Shown one piece after another: positions 8,706 to 64,000 of a stretch of 64,000 nucleotides of DNA. The stretch covers positions 1 through 64,000 of the forward strand of contig JALSNX010000018.1 in assembly GCA_026986775.1 (NCBI GenBank). Direction: 5' to 3'. The notes below the pieces were generated by a model. That model had not been told where the DNA came from and made no database searches. It saw only the letters and a list, made by a program, of their open reading frames with translations. Made by a program: the position numbers and the translations under genes. The DNA is from Caldifarciminota bacterium. GTDB taxonomy: Bacteria; Hydrothermota; Hydrothermia; UBA1063; CAJXJZ01. The first letter of the stretch is position 1. Each line of letters begins with the position of its first letter.

Positions 8706-8873
8706 GGGGGTAAACACCAAAGAGCAGGGGAATACACCCAATAGAAGATAAGATACTGCAATTCAATATCTTATGAATACAAAAATTCCGCAATATATTA
8801 AATTTAACACGGAGGGTGTTCCCCAAAAAGGTGTCCAAAGTTTCGACATGCACATGGAGATGATAAAAAAAAA

Positions 8874-18600: not shown

Positions 18601-18630
18601 TTGACAAAATACCCCCTACCCATGTATAAT
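18601..18630 (+). promoter_or_regulatory. Consensus promoter of the first RiPP locus
   Basis: TTGACA (18601-18606), an 18-nt C-rich spacer, then TATAAT (18625-18630): perfect boxes with a slightly long spacer. The spacer begins AAA and contains a C5 and a C3 run, resembling the other peptide promoter at 57239-57268. Confidence 0.8.
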
Positions 18631-49344: not shown

Positions 49345-50034
49345 TTATCGTGGTCCGTATTCTATTACATCCTCTATTTCTCCATCCTTTATTCTTATTT
49401 CTTTATTCCCCCTTCTTGCAAGTTCCACTGAATGTGTGACTATTATAACAGTTCTATTATTGGATATGAATTTTTCAATGAGTGTAATTATTCTACTGCC
49501 GGTTTTTGAATCCAGATTACCCGTGGGTTCATCTGCAATTAAAAGCAGAGGTTTCTTGCAAATTGCCCTGGCTATTGCCACCCTCTGCCTCTCACCTCCT
49601 GAAAGTTCATCCGGCATCCTGAACCTCTTTTCATAAAGCCCAACTTCATTTAAAGCCCAATCAGCGAGTTCTTTCTGCACATTTTTATTAAATCCAGCAA
49701 TCTGAAGAGCAATTCTTACATTTTCATAAACATTAAAATAAGGAAATAAGAAAAAACTCTGAAATACAAACCCTATTTTTTCCCTTCTCAATGCGCTCTT
49801 TGCTCTATCATCCATCTCTGTGGTGTCTGTTCCCTGAAGTCTATACTTTCCTTCTGATGGTGAATCAAGGAGACCGATGATATGTAAGAGGGTTGACTTA
49901 CCTGCACCTGAAGGGCCTGTGATATAAACATATTCTCCACTATCTATTCTTAAATTTATACGGGAAAGTGCCTTAACCTGTGTATGACCAAGGTTGTAAT
50001 ACTTGCTTACATCCACGAGTTCAATAAATGACAT
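49345..50034 (-). CDS. LolD/MacB-type ABC transporter ATPase
   Basis: A 229-residue nucleotide-binding subunit. Walker A GPSGAGKSTLLH (about 39-50), Q-loop FVFQSFFLFPYFNVYENV, signature LSGGERQRVAIARA (about 143-156), Walker B LLLIADEPTGNLDSKTG. It groups by pattern with ATPases that pair with FtsX/MacB permeases. It is the last gene of the peptide operon and overlaps the adaptor gene by 14 nt. It should power the FtsX-type permease at 52187-53386. Confidence 0.92.
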   Translation of the reverse strand: MSFIELVDVSKYYNLGHTQVKALSRINLRIDSGEYVYITGPSGAGKSTLLHIIGLLDSPSEGKYRLQGTDTTEMDDRAKSALRREKIGFVFQSFFLFPYFNVYENVRIALQIAGFNKNVQKELADWALNEVGLYEKRFRMPDELSGGERQRVAIARAICKKPLLLIADEPTGNLDSKTGSRIITLIEKFISNNRTVIIVTHSVELARRGNKEIRIKDGEIEDVIEYGPR

Positions 50035-51079
50035 TCAGGGTATCCTCCAGATTTCTCAATATGGACACAGGTCCGGTGACCACCGTATCTTTTAGACTCA
50101 AGCCCTCAAGAACTTCTGCAAATAAGTCTCCAATGAAACCTATATTCACCCTTTTCTTAAAAACCTCTCCATTCTTTACCACATAAACATAACTGGTATC
50201 ACTGCCTACAACACTTTCAATGGGAATACAGATTTTACACTTCTTTTCAAGCAAAATAGAAAGGTCTCCCTTAAGATAAGGAATAAGTCTCTTTTTACCT
50301 GCTTCTGGCATCATTTCTACAATATAATAAACTCCATCTACCTTCTCTTCTGCCTTAATATTCAGGGATAAAATCCTGGTCTTTAGTTTCAGGTTAAATG
50401 GAGTAATAATATTCACAGGTATTTTTTTTACCTTCATCATCAACTCTTTAATTCTCAAAAATTCAATGTCCCGTATATATCCACTGATCTTGATATCTTT
50501 GCTGTAAAACTTAATTAGAGTATCCTTTGAAAATGATTTGCCCACAAAAATTCCATCCAATGTAACATACCCCTCAAAAGGAGCCGTTATAGTAGAGTTT
50601 TTTATCTTAAATTCAATCTGTCTCAGTTGTTCTCTTGCCCTGAGAACTGCAAAAGAATCTTGAAGATAAGACTTATAGTCTAAGAGACCTGTCCTGAATT
50701 GTTTTCTGGACAGGCGGAATGCTAACTCCTTCTCTCTGAGATTGAGTTTTTTCTGATATAGTTCTCCAGAAAGAGCATCGTTTTCAAGGATTATGATGAC
50801 ATCTCCTTTATGATAAAAAGACTTTTTATTAACATATTTCACCCTGCTACCCTTTTTAATTAAAAATGCCTCTACTTTCAGAGGCTTTACTTCATAAGAT
50901 GCTAACACAGTTGCAACTATTGTGGTATCAGATGGAAGAGTCCATGTTATTTTCAAATGATCCTGACAACTGTCCCTAAACCTGAAATATAGCACTTTAA
51001 ACAATCCCACCAAAAATATAAGTGTCAACAATATCCATGTAACATGTTGTCTTCTTTTTTTGTCGCCAATCTTTTCCAT
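50021..51079 (-). CDS. HlyD/MacA-type membrane fusion (adaptor) protein
   Basis: A 352-residue periplasmic adaptor: a single N-terminal transmembrane helix (about 14-33), a beta-barrel/lipoyl split domain (KVEAFLIKKGSRVKYVNKKSFYHKGDVIIILEN), a short helical hairpin (about 125-165), and the second lipoyl half (STITAPFEGYVTLDGIFVGKSFSKDTLI). It links an inner-membrane permease to an outer-membrane channel. I start at 51079 with AAGGAG upstream. It follows the TolC-like gene. Confidence 0.88.
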   Translation of the reverse strand: MEKIGDKKRRQHVTWILLTLIFLVGLFKVLYFRFRDSCQDHLKITWTLPSDTTIVATVLASYEVKPLKVEAFLIKKGSRVKYVNKKSFYHKGDVIIILENDALSGELYQKKLNLREKELAFRLSRKQFRTGLLDYKSYLQDSFAVLRAREQLRQIEFKIKNSTITAPFEGYVTLDGIFVGKSFSKDTLIKFYSKDIKISGYIRDIEFLRIKELMMKVKKIPVNIITPFNLKLKTRILSLNIKAEEKVDGVYYIVEMMPEAGKKRLIPYLKGDLSILLEKKCKICIPIESVVGSDTSYVYVVKNGEVFKKRVNIGFIGDLFAEVLEGLSLKDTVVTGPVSILRNLEDTLNVIY

Positions 51080-51092
51080 ATTCTGCAACTCC

Positions 51093-52190
51093 TTATTTTG
51101 AAAGTATGTTCATTAAGGTTTCATACTTTAATTCAATAAGATACCTGCATTTTTCATGGTAAAACAGCAATTCATTTATGTAATCTTCTTTTTTCAAACT
51201 GTTGTTTTCATAACCGAGTTTTATCTTTTTATAATAGTTATTGAGCATCTCATCCATTCTGTCCGTATTTATCTTCATCTTATTCACTTGAGCGATATTT
51301 ATCCTGTGCTTTTCTGAATATCTTTTGGCTTCCAATTCCACTCTGAGTCTCCTTTTGTTTAAACGCGCCCTTTTTATTGCTTTTATACATTGGGGAACTG
51401 ATAGGTTAAAATTCAGAGAAATCCCTGAAATGGTATTAGAGCCAACAGGGTTTAAGGGGTCAAAACCGGCAAATTGACGCATATATAAATAAGATAAGTG
51501 GGGTAGCATTCTGGAATACGCATCTATCTCATCCATACGGGCAAGGCGATACCGTATGTGTTCAATCTTCAAATTTAAACTGTCCATGGTATTTTTAAGT
51601 TTGATTGCCATGTCTACAAGTTCATTATAAGTTTCCTCTATGACTATTTCATAAGTTTTATCTGATTTAATCCTTTTCAATAACTGCTCTCTTTCTCCGA
51701 CAAGTAGTGTTAACTCTTGCTCAGCCTCAAAAAGTTTCAGGTCTTCTTCTATGACCTTTTTTTGATTTGCTGGCAAATATGAGTATAATGTTCTAGCCTT
51801 TTTATAATAGAATATCAGACTATCCATAACATCAATAATTCTGCTGTAATACCACAATTTTGAGTATATCATAAGCATCGTTTTTTCAGCCCTCAAAACC
51901 GCCAGTGAATCTGTCAGCTTTTTTAATTTTTTTATATTTCTGTATCTTGGATAAAATAAGACATGCTTTGAGGTAAAAATAGGTATATTTATAGTGTAGT
52001 AATACAGCCATCTGTCATTACCATTAAATCTATATGTTTGAAAACTAAAATCAAGGTCCAGTGGTAAGATGTCAAGGAAATCTGTCTCATGGTATTTTAG
52101 CCGCTCTTTCGCTAATAGCGTTTTAAAATATTCACTTTTGAGTTTAAACTCCTTAAATGTGATTGCAACTAAAAATAATAAAATATTCAT
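51093..52190 (-). CDS. TolC-like outer-membrane efflux protein (divergent, short)
   Basis: A 365-residue, mainly helical protein with long coiled-coil segments in two halves (about 80-230 and 280-365), a weak N-terminal signal (MNILLFLVAITF), and a motif PVGSNTISGISLNFNLSVPQ that resembles the second TolC barrel strand region. It is shorter than typical TolC proteins. Its place between the permease and adaptor genes, with a 4-nt ATGA overlap, supports the role of outer-membrane exit duct. Confidence 0.7.
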   Translation of the reverse strand: MNILLFLVAITFKEFKLKSEYFKTLLAKERLKYHETDFLDILPLDLDFSFQTYRFNGNDRWLYYYTINIPIFTSKHVLFYPRYRNIKKLKKLTDSLAVLRAEKTMLMIYSKLWYYSRIIDVMDSLIFYYKKARTLYSYLPANQKKVIEEDLKLFEAEQELTLLVGEREQLLKRIKSDKTYEIVIEETYNELVDMAIKLKNTMDSLNLKIEHIRYRLARMDEIDAYSRMLPHLSYLYMRQFAGFDPLNPVGSNTISGISLNFNLSVPQCIKAIKRARLNKRRLRVELEAKRYSEKHRINIAQVNKMKINTDRMDEMLNNYYKKIKLGYENNSLKKEDYINELLFYHEKCRYLIELKYETLMNILSK

Positions 52191-53386
52191 AGGTATCTCA
52201 ACGCTTCAACAATCTCTCTCTTTGATGCCTCAAAGGCAGGATATATACCCGCTATTACTCCTGTAAACATGGATAGAAACAGGGACACAAGGAAAGGAGC
52301 AAGAGTGACATGAAAGATTATACCCTTCCCACCGGCCAGTATAAGAAGATAAGCAAGTATTACTCCAGATGGTATTCCTACAATCGCACCTAAAAGAGAA
52401 AGGACCACGGACTCAACTACAAAAAGAATAAAAATTGAGAATTTATTAAGTCCAAGTGACCTGAGTATACCTATCTCATGTATCCTTTCCCTCGCTGAAG
52501 TCAACATCACATTGGCAATTCCTATACTGGCAACAAGGAGACTTATAAACGACACAGCAAATAGCACATATGTGATGTTTGTGCTTATCCCCTTAAAACT
52601 TTTAAATACACTGAACATATCATTTACTCCGAATTTACCATATATACCATACCTTTTCCTGATACTTTCAAGTGTATTTTTAATCTCATTTTTTATCTTT
52701 TTTCTGTCAACTTCCGGGTCTATGAAAATATGGATTTGCACACTTGTGCCGGGCGTATAAAGGGCACTAAACGGACATATTACCACATTGTCGGGCCTGT
52801 TTTGCAATACCTCCCCCATTTTTGATAGAATGCCCGCTGCAATATAGGTTCTGCCATTGATAAGAAAATAATCAGGAACCTTCTTTATCCCAAGTTCCCT
52901 GGCCACTTCATAACCCATTACACATACCGGTTTTTTCAGTTTATTGTCAATCAAAGTAAATCCTCTTCCCGCATGGATTTTATAGTGTCTCAGACCAAGA
53001 TAATCCGGGTCAGACCCAATTATGTCCACATCATTCTTTATCCTTTTATTAAATTCCACATCTCCATTGAACCTTATTACACGAGAAATAAACTTTATAC
53101 CCCTTAATTTCTGCAGTATATGATACTCCTTTTCACCCACGGGAACCCTTCTTTCTATAACACTTTTTTTAAGATTCTTTTCCCTTTCCCAGTCATACCT
53201 ATCCACCACTATATCCGTCATTCCCAGCATTTCTATGCCAGTATTAACGGTGTATCTTATGGTATCAGAAATAACGAGAAAAAAACTTACAACAAAAGTA
53301 GCAATTATGATGGATGTGGATGTAAGTAGCGTCCTCAGCTTATGCTGCCTGAGATTATAAATTCCAAACAGTATTAATTCCCTCAT
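52187..53386 (-). CDS. FtsX/MacB-type ABC transporter permease
   Basis: A 399-residue permease: transmembrane helix 1 near residues 20-42 after the amphipathic start MRELILFGIYNLRQHKLRTLLT, a large periplasmic MacB-PCD-like domain (about 45-270, including GRGFTLIDNKLKKPVCVMGYEVAREL), then three helices at about 278-300, 325-350 and 365-385 (FtsX domain, ARERIHEIGILRSLGLNKFSI). I start at 53386: the ATG overlaps the preceding stop as ATGA. A longer frame reaches 53458 but runs into the preceding gene. Confidence 0.9.
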   Translation of the reverse strand: MRELILFGIYNLRQHKLRTLLTSTSIIIATFVVSFFLVISDTIRYTVNTGIEMLGMTDIVVDRYDWEREKNLKKSVIERRVPVGEKEYHILQKLRGIKFISRVIRFNGDVEFNKRIKNDVDIIGSDPDYLGLRHYKIHAGRGFTLIDNKLKKPVCVMGYEVARELGIKKVPDYFLINGRTYIAAGILSKMGEVLQNRPDNVVICPFSALYTPGTSVQIHIFIDPEVDRKKIKNEIKNTLESIRKRYGIYGKFGVNDMFSVFKSFKGISTNITYVLFAVSFISLLVASIGIANVMLTSARERIHEIGILRSLGLNKFSIFILFVVESVVLSLLGAIVGIPSGVILAYLLILAGGKGIIFHVTLAPFLVSLFLSMFTGVIAGIYPAFEASKREIVEALRYL

Positions 53387-53952
53387 TTTCTTAAAATACC
53401 CATAAGAATTATATACAGTGTATAAATCCCTGCATAAGACCCAAAAAGTTTTTGCCACCTGTCCCTTGATAAAGAAATAGAAACAAGATAAAAAACAAAT
53501 AAAAGCACAACATCAAAGTTAAATACAGCAATGTCAAAATTTTCCATGTTAAACAACCACCTTACAAGAAACACAAGAAGATTGGCAATAGTTTTCCAGG
53601 TCAAAAACAGAATAAAGATTTTCATGAAAGAATTAAATTTAATTTTTACGCCGTTGAATTTTGACACAACCCATAATACTAAAGCAGTAAATACAACTTT
53701 AATCGGAACTATGATAAATTGAAGTAAAACCGGTAGATAGTATGGAATTTCAATCCTTGTTCCTTTCTCTCTTGATCCAAGAACAAGATAAGACGAATAA
53801 GCGCTTTTGCCAGTAAATACTGGTAGTTTTTTCTCTGCTACAATCAGGACGAAAGAAATAACTAAAAGAAAAAAGAGGAACACAATCTGTGAGGTTTTCA
53901 ATTGGTCAGGTTCAAATTGTTCAGGGTTTGTCATATTTTTCAATATATTCAT
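53383..53952 (-). CDS. Small polytopic membrane protein (Yip1-like)
   Basis: A 189-residue protein with about five hydrophobic segments, in the manner of Yip1/DUF1282 membrane proteins often found beside MacB-type transporters. The N-terminus has about 20 polar residues. It overlaps the upstream ATPase gene by 32 nt and the permease gene by 4 nt. Role unknown: transporter accessory protein or self-immunity protein are both possible given the operon. Confidence 0.65.
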   Translation of the reverse strand: MNILKNMTNPEQFEPDQLKTSQIVFLFFLLVISFVLIVAEKKLPVFTGKSAYSSYLVLGSREKGTRIEIPYYLPVLLQFIIVPIKVVFTALVLWVVSKFNGVKIKFNSFMKIFILFLTWKTIANLLVFLVRWLFNMENFDIAVFNFDVVLLFVFYLVSISLSRDRWQKLFGSYAGIYTLYIILMGILRK

Positions 53953-54661
53953 CTTCCTTACCCCCTATTTTTATATGTTTTATCATTCCATTTTCCAGTT
54001 CTACTATTTTGTCTGCTCCTTTAAGCAATGTATTCTTGTGAGAACACACCACCACAGTCTTCCCATTCTTTATAAGATCAATAAGCGTATTATAAATTAT
54101 CTTTTCCGTTTTTAAATCAACGTTGGATGTAGGCTCGTCAAAGACATATATCTCATGATCTCCATAAAGGACACGGGCAAGATGTATTCTCTGTCTTTCG
54201 CCTCCGGAAAGGTTTTTACCTCCCTCCAGAATATATCTTTCCATATAATCCGGTTTCTCTATGAATTCCTGTAAACCAGCCTGCCTGATAACTTTAAGGT
54301 ATTTATCTTTGTCAAAAGGCCGGCCAAAAACTATATTTTCCCTTAATGAAGCATTCAGAATAAACGGCTGTTGAGGCAGAAAACCGATGAGTTTTCTGTA
54401 TGCAACAATCTGATCTTCCGTTAACTTAAGACCATCAATTAATATATCTCCTTCCTGTGGTATAAATAGCCCTGCTATTATATAGAGCAATGTTGACTTT
54501 CCTGCTCCAGTTTTACCTTTTATTCCAACAAACTCACCTTTTCTAATCTCAAAAGAAACATTTTTCAATATCTTTTTATCATCAAAACCAAATGTTATAT
54601 TTTTAAAAGAAATTTGATTTCTGAAAACCATTTTAGAAGAAATTAAAATCTCTTCTTTCAC
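53921..54661 (-). CDS. ABC exporter ATPase subunit
   Basis: A 246-residue nucleotide-binding protein of the exporter type: Walker A GKTGAGKSTLLY (about 49-60), Q-loop FLPQQPFILNASLRENIVFG, signature LSGGERQRIHLARV, Walker B IYVFDEPTSNVD. It is normally fused to a membrane domain in this class, but here that domain is the separate upstream gene. The start looks like GTG (54661), 2 nt after the permease stop; an ATG ten codons in is an alternative. Confidence 0.9.
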   Translation of the reverse strand: MKEEILISSKMVFRNQISFKNITFGFDDKKILKNVSFEIRKGEFVGIKGKTGAGKSTLLYIIAGLFIPQEGDILIDGLKLTEDQIVAYRKLIGFLPQQPFILNASLRENIVFGRPFDKDKYLKVIRQAGLQEFIEKPDYMERYILEGGKNLSGGERQRIHLARVLYGDHEIYVFDEPTSNVDLKTEKIIYNTLIDLIKNGKTVVVCSHKNTLLKGADKIVELENGMIKHIKIGGKEDEYIEKYDKP

Positions 54662-54663
54662 AC

Positions 54664-55602
54664 CTATTTCACACCTAAAAATTCATTTACACGTTTTAAA
54701 GAAGCCAGATTCTGTTTGAGAACAGAAATAGAATTGTTAAGGGTATTGAATTGCTGGTTACTCATCACAAACAGGGCAAAGGCCGATAAAAATTCTCCAA
54801 GTGTCAGAATGTTGTTCTTTACAAGATGAGAACCTACGATAAACCAAAGGATTACAAATGCACTAACAACAGCCACTACCACAACCAGTGAAGAGAATAG
54901 CAAAATGTCAGATTTAAACATCCTTTTAACAGTTTTAGACATAACTATCTTAAATCTATTGAAAATAAAATCCCAAGAACTCAGCATTTTAATAGTAATA
55001 AACCCGTGTATTACCTCAAGTATAAACGACTGCTTTTTGCCAATTGTATTGTAGTATTCGTAGAATACCTTCTGGATGAACGTGGCAAAGAATAAGGATA
55101 CAGCAGTAAAAAGGAAAATAAACAATAGAAAAAATATGCCGAACAGTGGATGGATACGAAATATAAACCATAAAGAAAACAGTATAAATGTTGCACTCCT
55201 GATTGTATTAAGAAGATTCTGTCCAATAATATTGGAAACTGAGCGGGTGTTTGAGCCGATACGCTCAAGCAAATCCCCTGAATTAAATCTGTAAAAGACC
55301 TGTGGTTTTGCATACAACAAATGCCTGAATAGAATATACTCAGTCTCAAATACAATTTTCTTTTTTACAAGGGCAAGATACAAGGCCAGCAAAAACTGTA
55401 TTACTACAGAAAGAACCATTATAAAAACGAATATTTTTACAGACCTTGAAAGTTCTATAAGGTTTCTGCTTTTTGTAAGAGCATCAATTATATTACCTGC
55501 TTTTCTCAACACAAAGGCATCAAGAAAAGCCACAAGTCCACCGAATACAACAATAAGTATAACCAGAACCATATGACGTTTCAAAACTCTGTATAATATC
55601 AT
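54664..55602 (-). CDS. ABC exporter membrane subunit (type 1 exporter domain)
   Basis: A 312-residue protein with six transmembrane helices in type 1 exporter style (about 10-30, 50-75, 130-150, 153-175, 240-262, 270-290) and the intracellular-loop pattern ETEYILFRHLLYAKPQVFYRFNSGDLLERI. There is no ATPase domain and no C39 peptidase domain, so leader cleavage must be done elsewhere. It starts 9 nt after the radical SAM gene and forms a half-transporter with the ATPase at 53921-54661. Confidence 0.9.
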   Translation of the reverse strand: MILYRVLKRHMVLVILIVVFGGLVAFLDAFVLRKAGNIIDALTKSRNLIELSRSVKIFVFIMVLSVVIQFLLALYLALVKKKIVFETEYILFRHLLYAKPQVFYRFNSGDLLERIGSNTRSVSNIIGQNLLNTIRSATFILFSLWFIFRIHPLFGIFFLLFIFLFTAVSLFFATFIQKVFYEYYNTIGKKQSFILEVIHGFITIKMLSSWDFIFNRFKIVMSKTVKRMFKSDILLFSSLVVVVAVVSAFVILWFIVGSHLVKNNILTLGEFLSAFALFVMSNQQFNTLNNSISVLKQNLASLKRVNEFLGVK

Positions 55603-55611
55603 TCCTCTCCT

Positions 55612-56982
55612 CTATTTATATTTTTCAGCCTCTTTTTTAAATTCCCCATTCATCCAGTAAAGTGTTTGTTTAATTTTTTCGCAATCCTTCTGTTCATGCA
55701 ACCTGTCATAAATCACCGCTTCTGTTATAACTCCAAAAAATTTACAATAAGGCGATGGCTCCGTTAATTTACCGGTAAATGCAAGATTCCTTGCTATACA
55801 CCCGCCACCTGCACAAAAATATTTTACAGGACATGTGTTACATCTTTCAAACTTGTCAATAAAAGGAGGTTCCCACCTTTTCAGGAAATCCACAGGTTCT
55901 ACATTTTCACTGAGGATGTTACCAAGTTTAAATTCATTGTCTCTAAGAGACGGACATAAATACACATCACCTCTACTATCAATCATAAATCCATCTCTTC
56001 TTCCAACAGAACAAAGTGGGTAACCATTGAGAGTAATTTGCTCCGTCACATATTGCACCACAGGAAATTCAGATATTACACTACAGTTATCCGACAATTT
56101 TTTAAGTATAGCGGTCACCTGATTAGAAAGCTGTTCATAAAACTTAACTAACATCTTTTTTGTGTTTTCATCGTTATGGAGATTTATACCTCTTCCAGAG
56201 GGTTCAAATAGACTGGATGAAAAAGCAAATCCGTATTGTTCTTCTATCATCATTCTCAAAGCATCAGTCTCGTGGATGTTCAAATGTATAGGAGTCATTT
56301 TTACAGTAACGTTTTCTATGCCAGCATTTTTAAGCATATTCAAAGTGTTCATAACTCTGCTAAATACACCTTTTCCTCTTATAGAATCATTGGTCTCAGG
56401 AGTGGCGCCATCAAGAGATATCTGAAAATGTATATCCCATTGTCTTAGTTGTTCAAGATATTCCCTTTTAAGTAATGTTCCATTGGTAAGTATCACAACT
56501 CTATCGATGCTCAACTCATCTTTTAAGTAATGAAGTAGTTTCATTAAATCATGTCTTATAAATGGTTCTCCACCTGAAATTTGAATTTCCGGGTTATAGG
56601 AAGCAAGTTTTTCAGCAATCCGAAATAACTCCTCCAATGTTAAATCTTTTTTTGCAATATTATCAGAAGCAAAACAGGTTATACACCTCAGATTGCATCT
56701 ATGTGTAATCTCCCAGTAGACATGTTTCACCTGTGGAGCAGGGGGTTTGACATTGACTTTGTTTTCCACAGGTTCACGGGGCTTACGCTCTTCTATATAA
56801 CCATGTTCTTTAAGATAATAAACTAACGGTGTGTACTTAGAGTCAAGATTTTTTTTCATAAAAATATTGTTGAAAGCATCCTTTGTTATAATTAAATAAC
56901 TGTGTTGAACCAGATTCACCAGTGCCACTTCGTTTCTTCTGTGGTTTATAGAATACCTCACACCTTCTTTCAATTTAAACAT
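55612..56982 (-). CDS. Radical SAM/SPASM peptide maturase
   Basis: A 456-residue enzyme. Residues 1-75 (VRYSINHRRNEVALVNL ... YYLKEHGYIEE) have a PqqD-like, precursor-recognition appearance. The radical SAM cluster is C96-x3-C100-x2-C103 (HRCNLRCITC) with ISGGEPFIRHD as the GGEP motif. The SPASM domain contains SVGRRDGFMIDSRGDVYLCP, then C381-x2-C384-x5-C390-x4-C395-x17-C413 (CNTCPVKYFCAGGGC), for auxiliary Fe-S clusters. It lies 56 nt after the 42-aa peptide gene, with a strong AGGAGGAGG site, and should modify that peptide. Confidence 0.92.
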   Translation of the reverse strand: MFKLKEGVRYSINHRRNEVALVNLVQHSYLIITKDAFNNIFMKKNLDSKYTPLVYYLKEHGYIEERKPREPVENKVNVKPPAPQVKHVYWEITHRCNLRCITCFASDNIAKKDLTLEELFRIAEKLASYNPEIQISGGEPFIRHDLMKLLHYLKDELSIDRVVILTNGTLLKREYLEQLRQWDIHFQISLDGATPETNDSIRGKGVFSRVMNTLNMLKNAGIENVTVKMTPIHLNIHETDALRMMIEEQYGFAFSSSLFEPSGRGINLHNDENTKKMLVKFYEQLSNQVTAILKKLSDNCSVISEFPVVQYVTEQITLNGYPLCSVGRRDGFMIDSRGDVYLCPSLRDNEFKLGNILSENVEPVDFLKRWEPPFIDKFERCNTCPVKYFCAGGGCIARNLAFTGKLTEPSPYCKFFGVITEAVIYDRLHEQKDCEKIKQTLYWMNGEFKKEAEKYK

Positions 56983-57010
56983 TTTGTACCTCCTCCTAGT
57001 ATGAATGGAG

Positions 57011-57231
57011 TCCGCAGGAAGGAGGAATTTTTTAAATATTATTTTTTGGGATTGCTTTCATACCAGCCCTGTATTACCCATATACAGATACCTCCACAAG
57101 AGCAACTTCCTCCACTATCATCTGCTTTTATAGTAGATCCTGTTAAAGGCAGAATCAATCCTTCCATTGTTCACCTCCTCCTTTTTGTTTTTTACATTAT
57201 CCTTTAGAATTTTTAGCCTCCTTCCTGCGGA
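57011..57231. repeat. Perfect 15-bp inverted repeat bracketing the peptide gene
   Basis: TCCGCAGGAAGGAGG at 57011-57025 and its exact reverse complement at 57217-57231, 191 nt apart. In the transcript one arm is at the very 5' end and the other lies between the peptide and maturase genes. The downstream arm reads CCTCCTTCCTGCGGA, an anti-Shine-Dalgarno-like sequence that could pair either with the 5' arm or with the maturase ribosome binding site (AGGAGGAGG, about 56988-56997). Confidence 0.85.
57039..57167 (-). CDS. Precursor peptide of the RiPP operon, 42 aa
   Basis: A short gene with a strong ribosome binding site (AAGGAGGAGGTG) before its ATG at 57167. It encodes 42 residues: a Cys-free leader (MEGLILPLTGSTIKADD), a GG at 19-20 that could mark leader removal, and a core starting SCSCGGICIWVIQGWY, with cysteines at 22, 24 and 28, tryptophans at 30 and 35, and Tyr36. 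It lies immediately upstream of a radical SAM/SPASM maturase and seven envelope and transport genes, which makes a precursor role likely. I do not recognise the peptide family. Thioether and Trp-based cross-links are both plausible for this class of enzyme. Confidence 0.78.
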   Translation of the reverse strand: MEGLILPLTGSTIKADDSGGSCSCGGICIWVIQGWYESNPKK

Positions 57232-57238
57232 TATTTTT

Positions 57239-57268
57239 ATTATAAGGGGGGGGGGGACGTTTTGTCAA
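57239..57268 (-). promoter_or_regulatory. Putative phase-variable promoter (C11 tract in the spacer) of the RiPP operon
   Basis: The minus strand reads TTGACA (57263-57268), an 18-nt spacer consisting of AAACGT, eleven C (57246-57256) and T, then TATAAT (57239-57244). Gain or loss of one C changes the spacer to 19 or 17 nt, which should change promoter strength strongly. The start of transcription would fall at the first base of the inverted repeat arm. Confidence 0.85.
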
Positions 57269-57424
57269 GAAAATGGATAAATTAGATTATACTAAAAAGC
57301 GTCTATTTATTATATTACATGTATCCTTGACCACTCAATCATATAAAACGAAAAATATCAATTATCGTTAAAACTTCTCTTTAAAAAATGGAACTTACGA
57401 CCTCACACTTTTATACTTTAAAAA
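57269..57424. other. Intergenic region upstream of the RiPP promoter, no gene seen
   Basis: About 155 nt of AT-rich sequence between the peptide promoter and the terminator of the next operon. No coding frame with a ribosome binding site, no RNA and no convincing operator palindrome was found. Confidence 0.5.
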
Positions 57425-57444
57425 AGCCGCCCGAAGGCGGCTTA
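57425..57444 (-). terminator. Intrinsic terminator of the DUF3078-like gene
   Basis: The minus strand carries an 8-bp stem (AAGCCGCC / GGCGGCTT) with a TTCG loop and a following T-run, 31 nt past the stop at 57476. Confidence 0.85.
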
Positions 57445-57475
57445 AAAGGAGGGCATAGAGCTATATGGTATATGC

Positions 57476-58273
57476 CTAAAGTATATTGAACGTCAACCCA
57501 AGAGACATGGTTTGCTTAATCTGGGCTCTGTCTATCTGGTCTTTATCGTAAAATATCATAAGATACAGGGAAATGTTAACGTATTTTACGACGCTAACTG
57601 TGAGGTTATTTTCAAACCTTACATCAGCGGCTTTCCATGTGTCCTGCGAACTGGAAACACTGCTTACGAGTGCCTTAAATAACCTTAAATTTGCCTCATA
57701 AAGGGCATTATCAGATATTTTGAACTTCCCGTTGGTTACCCATTCTACACCACCTTCCCTTGAAGTGACAATGGAATCCACCTGATTTATTACCTGCTTA
57801 AACGCAACACCCACCCTGCTTGTGAGATTTGCCCCGTTTTGCTCTATAATACTCCGTGCAAAACCAAAAGATTCCTGAAGGGTTATGGGATTTACATATT
57901 TGTTATTCTCATCATCAAAAAACCTTGAAAGAAGGTATATGGATGTGTATGGGTCAACTGGCCAGCCTTTTTTAAGAGTAAGTGTATTTTCATCTTCTAT
58001 TTTATCGGTGGATTTCACAGGTGAAAGCCAGTTTCCAGTTGTTTTGTCCTTTAAAAAAGTCTGACCATAGGCAAGAGAGAGTCTGTTTTTGTAGAAAAGG
58101 TATTCTGTAATATCTTTTTGTGCTTCACCGTCTAACTTCAAAAACCACGCTACATTGCTTGCATCATCACCCTGCCATGAATCATTGTAATAGGCCTCAC
58201 TCACATTTAACACAGACGTAAGAGAGACATTCCACGAATTCAAGAGTGCTATTAGCATTATACTGCTTATCAT
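57476..58273 (-). CDS. Predicted outer-membrane beta-barrel, DUF3078-like
   Basis: A 265-residue exported protein: signal peptide (about 1-17), then strands with alternating hydrophobic residues and aromatic ends (NRLSLAYGQTFLKD, VNISLYLMIFYDKD, MSLGLTFNIL). The N-terminal VSEAYYNDSWQGDDASNVAWFLKLDGEA and the KSTDKIEDENTLTLK segment resemble DUF3078 barrels, where S-N-W and D-K-x-D-x-L patterns recur. Outer-membrane location is likely; function unknown. It has its own promoter and a clear terminator, so it is monocistronic. Confidence 0.68.
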   Translation of the reverse strand: MISSIMLIALLNSWNVSLTSVLNVSEAYYNDSWQGDDASNVAWFLKLDGEAQKDITEYLFYKNRLSLAYGQTFLKDKTTGNWLSPVKSTDKIEDENTLTLKKGWPVDPYTSIYLLSRFFDDENNKYVNPITLQESFGFARSIIEQNGANLTSRVGVAFKQVINQVDSIVTSREGGVEWVTNGKFKISDNALYEANLRLFKALVSSVSSSQDTWKAADVRFENNLTVSVVKYVNISLYLMIFYDKDQIDRAQIKQTMSLGLTFNIL

Positions 58274-58319
58274 GAAAACCTCCTTTATATTTGTTTATAT
58301 TTGTTTTTAGGTTTCAACT

Positions 58320-58348
58320 ATTATAGTCCACGTTGGATGGATGGACAA
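58320..58348 (-). promoter_or_regulatory. Promoter for the DUF3078-like gene
   Basis: The minus strand reads TTGTCC (58343-58348), 17 nt, TATAAT (58320-58325). The leader to the ATG contains AAGGAGG. Confidence 0.6.
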
Positions 58349-58401
58349 ATACTGCATTTTATTTTGAATTTCATTTTATAAGGGTTAAGATAAAAGGCGC
58401 A

Positions 58402-59460
58402 ATGAAGATGACTGCAATCCTGGTGAGTAAACACCATCCCGGTGTAGTGAGCATGGCAAGAAATCTTGCAGAGGTAACAGGCGCGGTAAAGGTTCATTAC
58501 ATTGAAGACCTCTTTAACAGTGAACTTCTCTTCAGGCTGGAAAGAAGGTTTTTTCCACACTCTTTTTTTTCATTTACAAGAAGTGGTATTGAAAAACTCG
58601 TAAAGGAATACGATGACAGAATTATTCTTGGAGGCTGGAGTTCTATCCATGAAAAAATCGTAAATATTCTCAACGCCAGAGGGGTTAAACCTTCTGTAAT
58701 GTGGTGCAGTACACTGGGGCAGATGGAGATGACATGCCGAATGGGAGATTACAAAGCCCTCGTTTCGCTTTTATCACTGAATAAAGAGGGGAAAATCCGA
58801 TACATACTATTTAACGAGAGGCTCTTTGAGGAAATGGGATTTATTGAAAATTCAATATACTTTCCGCATACACTGAACCTTGATAAATTTAACGCATATT
58901 TTAAACCCTATCCCCAGAATAATTCTGATGCCTTCAATATAGACCTTTTTGTTGCAATGCGCTCTGGTAAAAATATACTTGCCCAGATATCGGCGATAAA
59001 ACTTTCAAAATACATGAGTAAAATAAAACTTCATATTAACTTCAAACACACTTATATTGAACAGGTTATCACCCACTGGGATGTTCCTGTTATAAAACAC
59101 AACTGGCTTAAATGGGAGGAATACCTGAACCTTATATCGGGCATGCACCTTTCTCTTCAGGTAACACATACAGAGAGTTTTAACTATGCTGTGGCTGAAC
59201 GTATGGCAATGGGTGTGCCTTCCCTTGTAAGTTGCAATATATACAACGTGTGTAAAGATGAATTTCTGAGAAAATATCTGTGTGTTGAAGCTGTGGACTC
59301 ACCGGCTAAAATAAGGGAACGTATGGATTTTATTCTTGCAAATCCCTCACTTTTTCTGGACTTACGGCAAAAAGTCCACGAGAGAATTAATAGAGTAATG
59401 AGAGAAAAAAATTCCCTGGCCGCAATGCTTCTCAACAAACTTTTCTATGAAAGACCTTAA
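58402..59460 (+). CDS. Glycosyltransferase (GT4-like)
   Basis: A 352-residue soluble protein with a GT-B look: an N-terminal half with ILVSKHHPGVVSMARNL and a C-terminal half in which HTESFNYAVAERMAMGVPSLVS matches the donor-site E-x7-E region of GT4 enzymes (Glu in TESF and AER). The frame extends to 58333, but the sequence before Met at 58402 is not conserved-looking. It overlaps the following flippase gene by 14 nt, which supports a polysaccharide or glycolipid role. Confidence 0.75.
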   Translation: MKMTAILVSKHHPGVVSMARNLAEVTGAVKVHYIEDLFNSELLFRLERRFFPHSFFSFTRSGIEKLVKEYDDRIILGGWSSIHEKIVNILNARGVKPSVMWCSTLGQMEMTCRMGDYKALVSLLSLNKEGKIRYILFNERLFEEMGFIENSIYFPHTLNLDKFNAYFKPYPQNNSDAFNIDLFVAMRSGKNILAQISAIKLSKYMSKIKLHINFKHTYIEQVITHWDVPVIKHNWLKWEEYLNLISGMHLSLQVTHTESFNYAVAERMAMGVPSLVSCNIYNVCKDEFLRKYLCVEAVDSPAKIRERMDFILANPSLFLDLRQKVHERINRVMREKNSLAAMLLNKLFYERP

Positions 59461-60742
59461 GACCTTCATCAAAAGTGCATTCTGGACGTTATTCTATCAG
59501 GGTGTAAGCCTTGGGTTTAACTTTCTGCTAAATATTGTACTTGCACGAAGACTTGGACCTGCAGGAAAAGGCCTGTTTTCCGTCTATATTCTTACACCTT
59601 CCCTTTTATCCATGATGCTCTCTTTGAGTATGGATGAATCTCATGTGTACTTTGCAAGCAAGGGCTACAGGGTGCGAGATATTGCTATAATTTCATTTTT
59701 CTATACCATCATATCAGGCATACCGCTTGTTTTAACATTTAAAACCTTTCCTGCACTTTATGCTGCCATCTTCAGAAACATTGAAATGTCAACACTTTTT
59801 TATGCTATCCTTATTACTCCCCTATTTCTCTTATTCAGATACTTACGTTCTATCTTTCTGGGAATGGGATATATAAAAACCTATAATTTCCTTGATTCAA
59901 TGAGGATAGCAGCGCTCCTTGTTTTTGTATCATCCTTTATCCTTATAAAACCGGACGTTGGACTTGCAGAAAAAGGGGTGAATTTTCACATACTATTTGC
60001 CCTTGTAATAACCACAATTCTACTTATTCCCCACCTGAAATATGGGACCAGAAAGTCCCATATTCTAAATCTCTTTGGAAAGGAACTAAAGTACGGACTT
60101 AAGGCATACCTTGGAATAACCATGAGCTTTTTTAACAGAAGGCTTGATGTTTTTATACTCAACTACTTCCGTTCGCCATGGGAAGTAGGGATATATTCAA
60201 TAAGTACAGCCCTTGCAGAACTTTTATGGAAGCTTCCGAATTCCATCGCAATTCCCTTATTTCCAAAAGTCGCAAGGGAAGAGAAAAAAGACTCAACGTT
60301 ATTTACTGTTTTCATCACCCGCATAACCTTTTTTATGCTGATTATTCTCGCTGTTTTAATGTTTTTAATAGGACGCCCTATTATTACCCTCCTTTTTGGA
60401 AATAAATTCTCCGCTTCCTTTACTCCACTTTTATGGCTTTTACCTGGTATAGTATTTCTCGGCACCGGAAGAGTGATTTCTTCCTACTTTCATGGGATTA
60501 ACAGGCCAGAATATGGGTCATTTTTTACCATAGTATCCGTTATATTCACCATTGCTTTTGACTTTATATTGATACCTTCCCTTGGGGCAAAGGGAGCAGC
60601 CATTGCTTCAAGCATTGCCTATACTGTCGCCGGAATTCTGGCTGTTGCGCTTTTTTCAAAAGAGGCCAGCGTCAGTTTCTTTTTAATGTTTATGCCCCCT
60701 GTAAGGGATATTGTGGAAATTGTCAAAAGGATTGGAGATTAG
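59447..60742 (+). CDS. MOP-superfamily polysaccharide flippase (Wzx-like)
   Basis: A 431-residue polytopic membrane protein with about 12-14 helices. The N-terminal LGFNFLLNIVLARRLGPAGKGLFSVY and the mid-protein RRLDVFILNYFRSPWEVGIYSISTALAELLWKLP segments are typical of Wzx/MviN-type lipid-linked oligosaccharide flippases. Translationally coupled to the glycosyltransferase (14-nt overlap). It could also serve the separate EPS cluster at 350-6473, which lacks a flippase in this window. Confidence 0.9.
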   Translation: MKDLKTFIKSAFWTLFYQGVSLGFNFLLNIVLARRLGPAGKGLFSVYILTPSLLSMMLSLSMDESHVYFASKGYRVRDIAIISFFYTIISGIPLVLTFKTFPALYAAIFRNIEMSTLFYAILITPLFLLFRYLRSIFLGMGYIKTYNFLDSMRIAALLVFVSSFILIKPDVGLAEKGVNFHILFALVITTILLIPHLKYGTRKSHILNLFGKELKYGLKAYLGITMSFFNRRLDVFILNYFRSPWEVGIYSISTALAELLWKLPNSIAIPLFPKVAREEKKDSTLFTVFITRITFFMLIILAVLMFLIGRPIITLLFGNKFSASFTPLLWLLPGIVFLGTGRVISSYFHGINRPEYGSFFTIVSVIFTIAFDFILIPSLGAKGAAIASSIAYTVAGILAVALFSKEASVSFFLMFMPPVRDIVEIVKRIGD

Positions 60743-61584
60743 TCTGACCGTATATACTTCAAAAGCGTATTACCAAACCTCTCCCTCAATTTTTTGAGTG
60801 CTCTATCCTTCAATTGTCTCGCTCTTTCTCTGGAAATGCCCAGTCGCTTGGCAATCTGAGAAAGGGGCTCAGGCTCATCTTCATCAAGTCCGAAAAATCT
60901 TTTTACTATGTACCTTTCTCTCGGAGAAAGCGTTTTCAGAGCATCATCTACTGCTTTTTTCATGGCTTCCTGCTTGAGTGCCTGCTCAGGTGATGGAAGC
61001 GCATCCTGCACCAGAAACTCAGGAATATGGGATTTGGAATCCTCTTCTCTGGTAAGAGCCTCAAGGGATATTTCTCTCTGGACATGCGATAAAAGCTCTG
61101 TCACCTCACGTTCCGGTAAGTTAACTTCCTTAGCTATATCCTGAACAGTTGAAAGTGCTCCCATTTCATGGGACAGACTTTCACCTATATCTAAAAGCTC
61201 TCTTGCTCTGGTCCTCGCCGAATGAGAGATTCTTATATCCTTGGCCTGATTTGATATGGCATTGAGTATGGCCTGCTTAACCCACCATATGGCATAACTC
61301 ATGAATCTCACATTTTTGGAGAGGTCAAAACGCTTAATAGCCCTGAGGAGCCCCATATTGCCCTCATTTATGAGGTCAGCAAGTGGGACTCCTCTGTCCT
61401 TGTATTTTTTTGCGATGGCTACTACGTATCTTAAATTTGCATAAAGAAGCTTCTCTACAGCTTCCCTGTCGCCCTGCTGAGCTTTCTTAATAAGCTCAAG
61501 TTCCTCTTCCCTCGTCAGTGTGGGAAGATGCTCAATATTTTTAAAATAGTACTCTAAGGAGTCCTCTTCGTACTTTCTGGGCAA
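60739..61584 (-). CDS. RNA polymerase sigma-70 factor (primary or group 2 type)
   Basis: A 281-residue sigma factor lacking region 1.1. Region 1.2 (DSLEYYFKNIEHLPTLTREEE), region 2 (DLINEGNMGLLRAIKRFDLSKNVRFMSYAIWWVKQAIL) with the WW -10 recognition motif, region 3 (about 115-190) and region 4 (LSPRERYIVKRFFGLDE ... LSQIAKRLGISRERARQLKDRALKKL) are all present and well conserved. The promoters in this window match what such a factor recognises. Whether it is the only housekeeping sigma cannot be told here. Confidence 0.95.
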   Translation of the reverse strand: MPRKYEEDSLEYYFKNIEHLPTLTREEELELIKKAQQGDREAVEKLLYANLRYVVAIAKKYKDRGVPLADLINEGNMGLLRAIKRFDLSKNVRFMSYAIWWVKQAILNAISNQAKDIRISHSARTRARELLDIGESLSHEMGALSTVQDIAKEVNLPEREVTELLSHVQREISLEALTREEDSKSHIPEFLVQDALPSPEQALKQEAMKKAVDDALKTLSPRERYIVKRFFGLDEDEPEPLSQIAKRLGISRERARQLKDRALKKLRERFGNTLLKYIRSD

Positions 61585-61588
61585 CTAC

Positions 61589-63457
61589 TTATCTTCCTAC
61601 AAGTTTACTATAGAGATCCTCAGGATAAACTTCCAGAGCCCTCACCCATCTGGAAAGTTTTTCCACTCTATCTTTTGGATTCTCCGGCATGGTAAGTGGC
61701 CTGCCTCTTCCATCAAAAATCAATCCGACAACTCCCCCCTGAAGCTCAACCTCCAGCACCTTACCCTTTCCTGCACCAACATCCACGTTCTTTACTGGTT
61801 CTATAACTGCTTTTGCGACTTCCCCAACACCGAGCGGAACCTTAAAGAGGTCTCCCCACTTTATCTCAAGGTCTTTTTTGCTTCCATCAGGCATTTCAAG
61901 GTGTACCTTTGCCATGAGCTTACCTTCCTTCATGGGTTTATCCGTTACAGGAACAACAGAGTGACCGAGCCTTATAAGACAGTCCCTGTCAAACACCTCA
62001 GTGGCAGCCTCCTCATGGACATCAGCAAGAACACCCAGATGAGGCATCATAAAGATGGAGTCAACTGTAAGCATGGTGATGCCTTCAGGCTCAAATGCAT
62101 CAAGCATCATAAGTGCAGACTGTACCCTTCTCGGAGCATGAGATAGCACTCCACCTGAACCAATTATCATGGCAAGACTCATCATATCAACAAGCGTTCC
62201 TCCTGCAAGGCTCTGAGCGAATGCATCTGATATAGTCCTTTCCTGCTGAACCCCCTTAAGCCCTACAGCCATTGATTTATGATGTTCAAAGGCAAGCCTT
62301 AACGCCTCTCTTGCAATAGCCTGTTCTATTATAAGCTCTTCAAGGGTCTGCGGTATTGTGGTGGGTCTTATCATCTTATTCCTGATTCTGTTTTTTAGCT
62401 CTGAGGGGTCTATATGGAAGGGCACCCACCGCAGGATATTGTCCACTCCAGCCTCAACAAGGACATTTGAAATTGAATAGCTCATACCAAGATTTGCGGA
62501 AACCGTTCTGTTGAAAACCCTTTTTCCCTCACTCTTGTCCTTGAAAACAGAGAACACGTCGGTTGTTGCACCACCTATATCCACACCTAAAACATCAATA
62601 TCCTGTTTATTACCAACCTTCTCTACTAAAGACCCAACAGCACCCGGTGTCGGTTTTATAGGTGTATCGGTCCAGCTCATAAGTTTTTTGTAACCCGGAG
62701 CATGCTGCATTACGTGTTCCATAAAGAGTTCATGTATCTTGTCACGTGCAGGTTTGAGATTCTCTTTCTCCAGAACGGGCCTTATATTATCCACTATTTC
62801 AAGTGCAACCTTATCACCCAAAATCCTCTTTATATCTTCTCTTGCATCTTTATTTCCCGCATAGATAACGGGAAGACTGTATCCTACACCGAAACGTGGC
62901 TTTGGGTCTGCGGCTGCTATAAGCTCTGCAAGTTCTATTACATGTTTCTTGGTACCACCATCAACGCCACCTGCGAGAAGAATCATATCGGGTCTTAATC
63001 GCCTTATAAGTTCAACCCTCTCATGGGGCATTCTTCCATCATTGGATGCAATTACATCCATAACTATGGCACCTGCACCAAGAGCCGCCCTCTGTGCACT
63101 TTCTGCTGTCATTTGTCTAACAACACCTACAACCAGCATCTGAAGTCCACCGCCTGCAGAAGAAGTGGAAACATAAATATCCACTCCTTCCTTTTCACTC
63201 TTTTTTGGCTTGATAATCTTTTCGCCTTCAAGTATATCTATTCCTGTAAGTTCTTCAACTTCCCTGAAAGAATTAAGAACACCCCTTGTAACATCTTCAA
63301 AAGGAGCCTCAACTGTTGTGGGAGCCTCACCTCTTGCAGATAAACGATAATGCTCACCCTTTTTCTCAATAAGAATGGCTTTCGTAGTTGTACTTCCACA
63401 ATCCGTTGCAATTACTCTCTCAATCTTTGTTTTGTCAATGTTTTTCTGAGGACTCAC
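61589..63457 (-). CDS. GlmL/MutL-family ASKHA ATPase
   Basis: A 622-residue protein of the glutamate mutase L family (PF13941). Two actin-like phosphate loops are visible: VIATDCGSTTTKAIL (about 17-31) and GVDIGGATTDVFSVF (about 295-310). The family is encoded near adenosylcobalamin mutases and is thought to support or reactivate them; no mutase subunit is in this window. It overlaps the L7Ae-like gene by 23 nt and lies 4 nt before the sigma gene. Confidence 0.88.
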   Translation of the reverse strand: MSPQKNIDKTKIERVIATDCGSTTTKAILIEKKGEHYRLSARGEAPTTVEAPFEDVTRGVLNSFREVEELTGIDILEGEKIIKPKKSEKEGVDIYVSTSSAGGGLQMLVVGVVRQMTAESAQRAALGAGAIVMDVIASNDGRMPHERVELIRRLRPDMILLAGGVDGGTKKHVIELAELIAAADPKPRFGVGYSLPVIYAGNKDAREDIKRILGDKVALEIVDNIRPVLEKENLKPARDKIHELFMEHVMQHAPGYKKLMSWTDTPIKPTPGAVGSLVEKVGNKQDIDVLGVDIGGATTDVFSVFKDKSEGKRVFNRTVSANLGMSYSISNVLVEAGVDNILRWVPFHIDPSELKNRIRNKMIRPTTIPQTLEELIIEQAIAREALRLAFEHHKSMAVGLKGVQQERTISDAFAQSLAGGTLVDMMSLAMIIGSGGVLSHAPRRVQSALMMLDAFEPEGITMLTVDSIFMMPHLGVLADVHEEAATEVFDRDCLIRLGHSVVPVTDKPMKEGKLMAKVHLEMPDGSKKDLEIKWGDLFKVPLGVGEVAKAVIEPVKNVDVGAGKGKVLEVELQGGVVGLIFDGRGRPLTMPENPKDRVEKLSRWVRALEVYPEDLYSKLVGR

Positions 63458-63749
63458 TTTTCTCCTCCTTTGATATTAAAAGGTTTTCAAACTTTCTTTT
63501 TATTCCAAATACACCGACTTCCGCACGACCGAATATTTTGCCTAACTCCGCTTTGGACTTATTGCAATATAAAATTTTATGCTTTCCCTCCAACACGTTC
63601 AAGATTTTATTAATTTCACGACGGGACATATCATCTGCAAAAACGATTACACTGATTTTATCAAGGTTGTGTAAAACACATGACCTGCCAACACTTATAC
63701 CTCCACCCTTTATTGCAAGGCCGATGTTCTCTAATTTTATCTGTGCCAT
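63435..63749 (-). CDS. L7Ae/YlxQ-like RNA-binding protein
   Basis: A 104-residue protein with the L7Ae/L30e fold pattern: AIKGGGISVGRSCVLHNL, KISVIVFADDMSRREINKIL (the A-x-D-x-S region), YCNKSKAELGKIFGRAEVGVFGIKR (the LG-x-x-x-G motif). Such proteins bind K-turn RNA or ribosomal sites. The charged tail overlaps the MutL gene. Confidence 0.82.
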   Translation of the reverse strand: MAQIKLENIGLAIKGGGISVGRSCVLHNLDKISVIVFADDMSRREINKILNVLEGKHKILYCNKSKAELGKIFGRAEVGVFGIKRKFENLLISKEEKSESSEKH

Positions 63750-64000
63750 AGCTTTGCGATGTCCATAAATGTTATAACGACCATTAATATCACAAGGGCA
63801 ACAAAGCCAACAAACTGGATGGATTCTACAATTTCCCGTTTTAACGGTCTTTTTATGATAGCTTCAAAGGTGAAAATAAGCGCATGAAAGCCATCAAGAG
63901 CTGGAAATGGAATGAGATTCAAAAGAAACAGATTTATGGATAAAGCTGCGACAAGATTGATAAGACTGGACAGCTTTATTAAAAATCCGCTTCCCATGCT
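63737..64000 (-). CDS. RseP/site-2 protease family (M50) membrane metalloprotease, C-terminal part
   Basis: The last 87 codons of a gene that runs off the right edge. The C-terminal membrane core LSINLFLLNLIPFPALDGFHALIFTFEAI has the N-x2-P-x4-D-G motif that supplies the third zinc ligand Asp in site-2 proteases, followed by KRPLKREIVESIQFVGFVALVILMVVITFMDI, typical of RseP. HExxH and PDZ domains would lie beyond the window. It overlaps the L7Ae-like gene by 13 nt. Confidence 0.85.
   Translation of the reverse strand, partial: SMGSGFLIKLSSLINLVAALSINLFLLNLIPFPALDGFHALIFTFEAIIKRPLKREIVESIQFVGFVALVILMVVITFMDIAKLWHR

Follow-up and report, generated by a model that had tools for sequence, protein, structure and literature searches.

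A consensus promoter with an 11-C spacer tract, on a cassette shared among RiPP-type operons of an uncultured WOR-3 bacterium, as a likely phase-variable switch

The stretch of DNA analysed here (64,000 nucleotides, hereafter the window) comes from the 2.18-Mb genome, in 30 contigs, of an uncultured bacterium of candidate division WOR-3; this genome is labelled G000, and its sister genomes G001, G002 and G003. On the minus strand of the window, a promoter reads 5′-TTGACA AAACGT CCCCCCCCCCC T TATAAT-3′ (Table 1). An earlier note, made from the sequence of the window, had described perfect TTGACA and TATAAT boxes, an 18-nt spacer with exactly 11 C residues, and in that tract the longest homopolymer of the window. 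All of this was confirmed, the runner-up homopolymer being an A10 run at 8865. Perfect TTGACA-N15..20-TATAAT promoters occur six times in the window versus 0.19 times expected from shuffling, and only the C11 promoter among the six has a long homopolymer spacer, with its run well within the range (at least about 8 residues between recognisable −35 and −10 boxes) that defines such tracts here. Given the genome size and a C content of 19%, approximately 0.04 runs of at least 11 C are expected by chance. An intrinsic-terminator-like hairpin, AAGCCGCC-TTCG-GGCGGCTT-TTTT, was read from the sequence and is absent from the output of a mechanical scan; because it would cut off the upstream gene, the C11 promoter probably heads its own unit.

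Table 1. Features of the C11 promoter, its operon and related tract promoters. Coordinates are those of the window unless a contig is named.
Feature	Position	Strand	Remark
−35 hexamer TTGACA	57263..57268	−	Perfect match
−10 hexamer TATAAT	57239..57244	−	Perfect match
C11 homopolymer, proposed slippage tract	57246..57256	−	Inside 18-nt spacer 57245-57262
Promoter cassette, window copy	57238..57347	−	76% identity to contig C4 copy, E 1.4e-15; nine other places homologous
Degenerate palindrome copy TGATTGAGTGGTCA, candidate operator	57328..57341	−	In window cassette
Intrinsic-terminator-like hairpin	57420..57443	−	Between upstream gene and cassette
Inverted repeat, 15 bp, perfect, 5′ arm	57217..57231	−	At expected transcript start
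Inverted repeat, 15 bp, perfect, 3′ arm	57011..57025	−	Between precursor and maturase
Cys-rich precursor-like ORF, 42 aa, MEGLILPLTGSTIKADDSGGSCSCGGICIWVIQGWYESNPKK	57039..57167	−	62% identical to G002 precursor behind orthologous tract promoter
Radical SAM/SPASM peptide maturase-like protein, 456 aa	55612..56982	−	Best solved-structure matches 5wgg, SkfB 6efn
ABC transporter membrane half	54664..55602	−	Operon member
ABC transporter ATPase half	53921..54661	−	Operon member
YknW-like membrane protein	53383..53952	−	Weak match
MacB/FtsX-type permease	52187..53458	−	Operon member
ORF between permease and adaptor, 365 aa	51093..52190	−	Without family match
Membrane-fusion (adaptor) protein	50021..51088	−	Operon member
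LolD/DarD-like ABC ATPase	49345..50034	−	Operon member
Sister promoter TTGACA-AAATACCCCCTACCCATG-TATAAT, interrupted tract ACCCCCTACCC	18601..18630	+	18-nt spacer; second peptide operon
Cys-rich precursor-like ORF of second operon, 47 aa	18678..18821	+	SPASM maturase from 18884
T19 tract between TTGA and TATAAT	G000 contig C9:121452-121484	−	Precedes 32-aa Cys-containing precursor ORF and SPASM maturase

Behind the C11 promoter, a short precursor-like gene is followed by a maturase gene and, downstream of it, two ABC export sets. The maturase combines a radical SAM core (PF04055, 97.6 bits) with a SPASM domain (TIGR04085, 47.9 bits, above cut-off), and its nearest solved structures are SkfB and 5wgg, a radical SAM domain protein. 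The short Cys-rich precursor, SPASM maturase and ABC exporters resemble radical SAM/SPASM RiPP operons of the sactipeptide/ranthipeptide type; unlike the named SPASM RiPP types, the window maturase falls below every curated NCBIfam maturase cut-off, the best being the mycofactocin maturase (141.7 bits versus a cut-off of 265). With the maturase as query, a protein-based scan of named genomes found no relative. The orthologous unit in G002, a sister genome, also starts from such a tract promoter and then has a conserved precursor, in which the core CSCGGICI of the window peptide is kept as CSCGG(I/V)CI; both precursors end in YESNPKK. The precursor/maturase/exporter layout, together with the like arrangement in G002, therefore indicates a RiPP-type unit by anatomy, as the earlier note had claimed. 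Positions 50000-64000 gave no match to Rfam at gathering cut-offs, hence no known riboswitch or leader. The two arms of the inverted repeat, 190 nt apart, are predicted to form a stem that encloses the precursor gene (z-score −4.96) and perhaps stabilises the precursor RNA. We considered an invertible element at this repeat and regard it as less likely, as the repeat flanks the precursor and not the promoter, and RNA pairing is the simpler reading.

The architecture is not confined to this operon. G000 contains 21 runs of at least 8 C, 15 of which lie in promoter spacers, between a −35-like and a −10-like box (of these, one is truncated by the end of its contig and another has the −10 box TATACT). 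The other six runs are all C8, and about six are expected by chance. For runs of at least 9 C, nine of nine lie in promoter spacers and approximately one is expected genome-wide by chance, so that the spacer tracts go beyond chance. A search for perfect boxes with at least 5 C found 16 places in G000, with 0 in a reversed-pattern control; these roughly 16 recurrences, as well as an interrupted version at 18601-18630 (+) in the same window, had been overlooked in the earlier note. Tract promoters occur in all four genomes of the genus and, elsewhere in the phylum, once each in 2 of 143 genomes.

Many of these promoters belong to one family. Ten places in G000 are homologous to the promoter region at contig C4:174698 over about 80-110 bp and share an upstream cassette of about 80 bp, and in many of these cassettes the transcript would begin with a small hairpin; the 5′ end of the window copy pairs 190 nt downstream instead. 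Outside the cassette family there are tract promoters on contigs C2:27651, C4:103890, C8:505, C22:58126 and C1:201270, plus a promoter with a T19 tract.

The targets of the tract promoters are mostly secreted peptides or surface proteins. G000 has 11 SPASM genes (TIGR04085), of which eight stand behind a C8-C12 promoter (two of these being copies of one 8.3-kb duplication), one behind an interrupted C tract and one behind the T19 tract, leaving a single gene, at contig C4:4014, with none. Finding a different base at the same place, as in T19, argues for homopolymer length and against a C-specific site. The second peptide operon of the window shares the promoter cassette and has a 5′ hairpin, and its interrupted tract is possibly a locked version of the switch. 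On contig C2, a promoter with another interrupted tract (C5AC7) controls genes for a 43-aa precursor and a RamC_N/kinase/LanC synthetase (L165:7730-10575), a unit that is, judged by its gene content, a class III-type lanthipeptide operon. Tract promoters also precede a C25 peptidase that carries a secretion tail, a matrixin-like protein, an adhesin weakly similar to BspA, and ORFs that look like lipoproteins. The precursor-like ORFs differ strongly among operons, which implies that many different peptides would come under one promoter type. Separately, on G002:C297, G001:C57 and G000:C27 the maturase gene behind the tract promoter is truncated or broken, with the promoter and exporter kept.

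Comparison of related loci allowed us to interrogate tract length. Near-identical cassette paralogs, with conserved flanks, carry 8, 9, 10 or 11 C. The earlier note had proposed counting the tract in related genomes, and there the lengths do differ, with flanks that have partly diverged: the window operon has C11 in G000, C8 in G002 and C7 in G001, the orthologs at contig C1:40941 and G002:C226 have C11 and C9, and those at contig C22:86075 and G003:C4 have C8 and C10. Proteins of the orthologous operons compared are approximately 40-65% identical. Spacer length is likewise loose. Of the consensus promoters in the genus that lack a tract, 73 of 108 have a 17-nt spacer; of the tract promoters, whose spacers range from 14 to 21 nt, 4 of 20 do (Fisher p ~1e-4, an optimistic value, because promoter copies are related by descent and the statistics overstate independence). 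This pool includes G002 and G003 as added background and added tract promoters from G001, G002 and G003; on unique G000 promoters alone the test is not significant (p ~0.1). Such a loose distribution is expected if tract promoters mix on and off lengths. Counting against switching, the two copies of the recent 8.3-kb duplication on contig C4 show no tract difference, both being C8, and a related promoter on contig C10 is also C8.

There are described precedents for length-dependent promoters of this kind. In Neisseria meningitidis, unstable homopolymers between −10 and −35 are described for porA, fetA and opc (PMC2791445), and shortening the 17-nt spacing of porA is described as abolishing its transcription (PMC7864442). 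Like porA (poly-G) and fetA, the window promoter has its homopolymer between the two boxes, where length shifts the spacer around a 17-nt optimum (PMC2791445, PMC7864442). By analogy with porA, a change in C number should retune the window promoter. Unlike porA and fetA, which are single surface proteins of a pathogen with known switching, the case here is a shared cassette before many peptide operons of an uncultured phylum, for which switching is predicted. The opc C tract, at about 11-12 residues, is similar in size; it varies from C11 to C12 and its length dictates expression (PMC3447861), and the window C11 counts for switching because it falls within that range. In opc the poly-C covers the −35 region and acts on regulator binding (PMC7864442), whereas the perfect −35 of the window stands apart from the tract. 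Treponema pallidum likewise has several variable homopolymer promoters per genome, with poly-G before the tpr genes and tp0126; its targets are outer-membrane proteins, unlike the window operon, and at tprL the tract overlaps the −10 and leaves the spacer unchanged (PMC7864442). Against switching, the opc tract showed 0 changes among 89 colonies of a mismatch-repair-proficient meningococcus (PMC3447861). MutS was found in all four genomes of the genus, so mismatch repair has probably not been lost, and hypermutation through such a loss is unsupported.

In our view the promoter is likely to be a phase-variable one of the porA type, with the C11 tract as the part that varies in length; it would be reused across a RiPP regulon and give stochastic expression. 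This reading builds on the promoter anatomy, the cassette family, the enrichment in spacers, the functional coherence of the targets and the length differences among paralogs and orthologs. In living cells, slipped-strand mispairing would add or remove single C residues, and the changed −35/−10 distance would alter engagement of the housekeeping sigma factor and hence transcription. C11 gives an 18-nt spacer, one above the genus-preferred 17, while C10 would give 17, C8 would give 15 and C13 would give 20. The lineage would have spread the cassette until it preceded almost every RiPP operon and several operons for secreted proteins. Individual cells would then probably turn production of the modified peptides on and off at random, and with each operon switching independently, cells would differ in the peptides they make, the benefit presumably being bet-hedging. 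The earlier note's proposal of a phase-variable switch on a RiPP operon is thus borne out in part: the promoter is real, as is the operon of RiPP type, and the genome-wide spacer placement, the varied ortholog lengths and the loosened spacer distribution favour a length-variable switch.

One alternative is that the C tract serves structure or recognition as a fixed element and that its length is not used as a switch: a regulator, or poly(dC).poly(dG) geometry, would set a weak promoter that a trans-acting factor, perhaps bound to an upstream palindrome, activates. Most G000 cassettes carry a palindrome, TGATTAAGTAATCA, at 73 bp upstream of TTGACA (69 bp in one); this suggests a shared regulator of the peptide operons beside any stochastic control. 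The C residues are on the RNA-like (sense) strand in 15 of 15 G000 promoter tracts, with G never found there; shared descent may explain part of this constancy, which counts against the slippage reading, since slippage alone does not require the same strand. Beyond the phylum, a scan of named genomes returned, among the matches listed, numerous promoters with C8-C11 spacers, from Mucispirillum, Clostridia-class MAGs and other genomes. Mucispirillum has many C9-C10 spacer promoters among the matches listed, nearly all of them C9 and mostly with a 15-nt spacer, and this near-constant length leaves room for a non-switching role there. The first ORFs behind the Mucispirillum promoters, among the matches listed, are often lipoprotein-like; lipoproteins are a classical kind of phase-variable target. 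The T19 tract in the equivalent position of one operon, the interrupted tract of another, spacers of 14 to 21 nt, and C numbers that differ among orthologs and paralogs all fit poorly with a fixed element, which we regard as unlikely.

Less probable still is that the tracts are neutral by-products, a cassette with a chance C run having been copied and its length having drifted without effect. The homology of the ten G000 copies is what such copying would leave, as is a 330-bp stretch that is 98% identical on contigs C4 and C10 before different genes. Against this, several tract promoters, T19 included, lie outside the cassette family, the targets are for the most part surface proteins or secreted peptides, and a C11 run under neutrality would be expected to decay, whereas these tracts persist in low-identity orthologs; neutrality is hard to reconcile with a long C run retained at changed length over approximately 40-65% protein identity. 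That the exact tract length is an artefact of the sequencing or assembly consensus is very improbable: homopolymers are error-prone and several contigs end near tract promoters (contigs C10, C27:8 and C8:505), yet these promoters recur on many contigs of four separately assembled genomes, G000 lacks long C runs outside promoters, and an error could put the count off by one or two residues but would not produce a tract where there is none.

Returning to a switch of variable length, we give even chances to a wider proposal, a RiPP phasome in which almost every modified-peptide operon, from unrelated classes, is independently and reversibly switched by homopolymer-spacer promoters. The joint form of this proposal, which takes in SPASM-type and class III lanthipeptide operons, with many of the promoters on a spreading cassette with a shared operator, could hold or fail with about equal probability. 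Full-text literature searches, narrow and of partial coverage, found no precedent for phase-variable control of RiPPs or bacteriocins, and nothing that speaks against the earlier note on this point. The principle is known; that one genome applies it, through a shared cassette, to almost all of its RiPP operons appears to be new. Known cases of spacer-homopolymer switching concern the surface proteins of host-associated pathogens. Should the same hold genome-wide for RiPP operons in an uncultured candidate phylum, stochastic peptide production would count as a strategy in its own right, and RiPP clusters that are silent or variable may owe this to genetic switching rather than to missing induction. 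Under a RiPP phasome, the cells of a clonal population would between them carry many combinations of surface proteins and secreted peptides.
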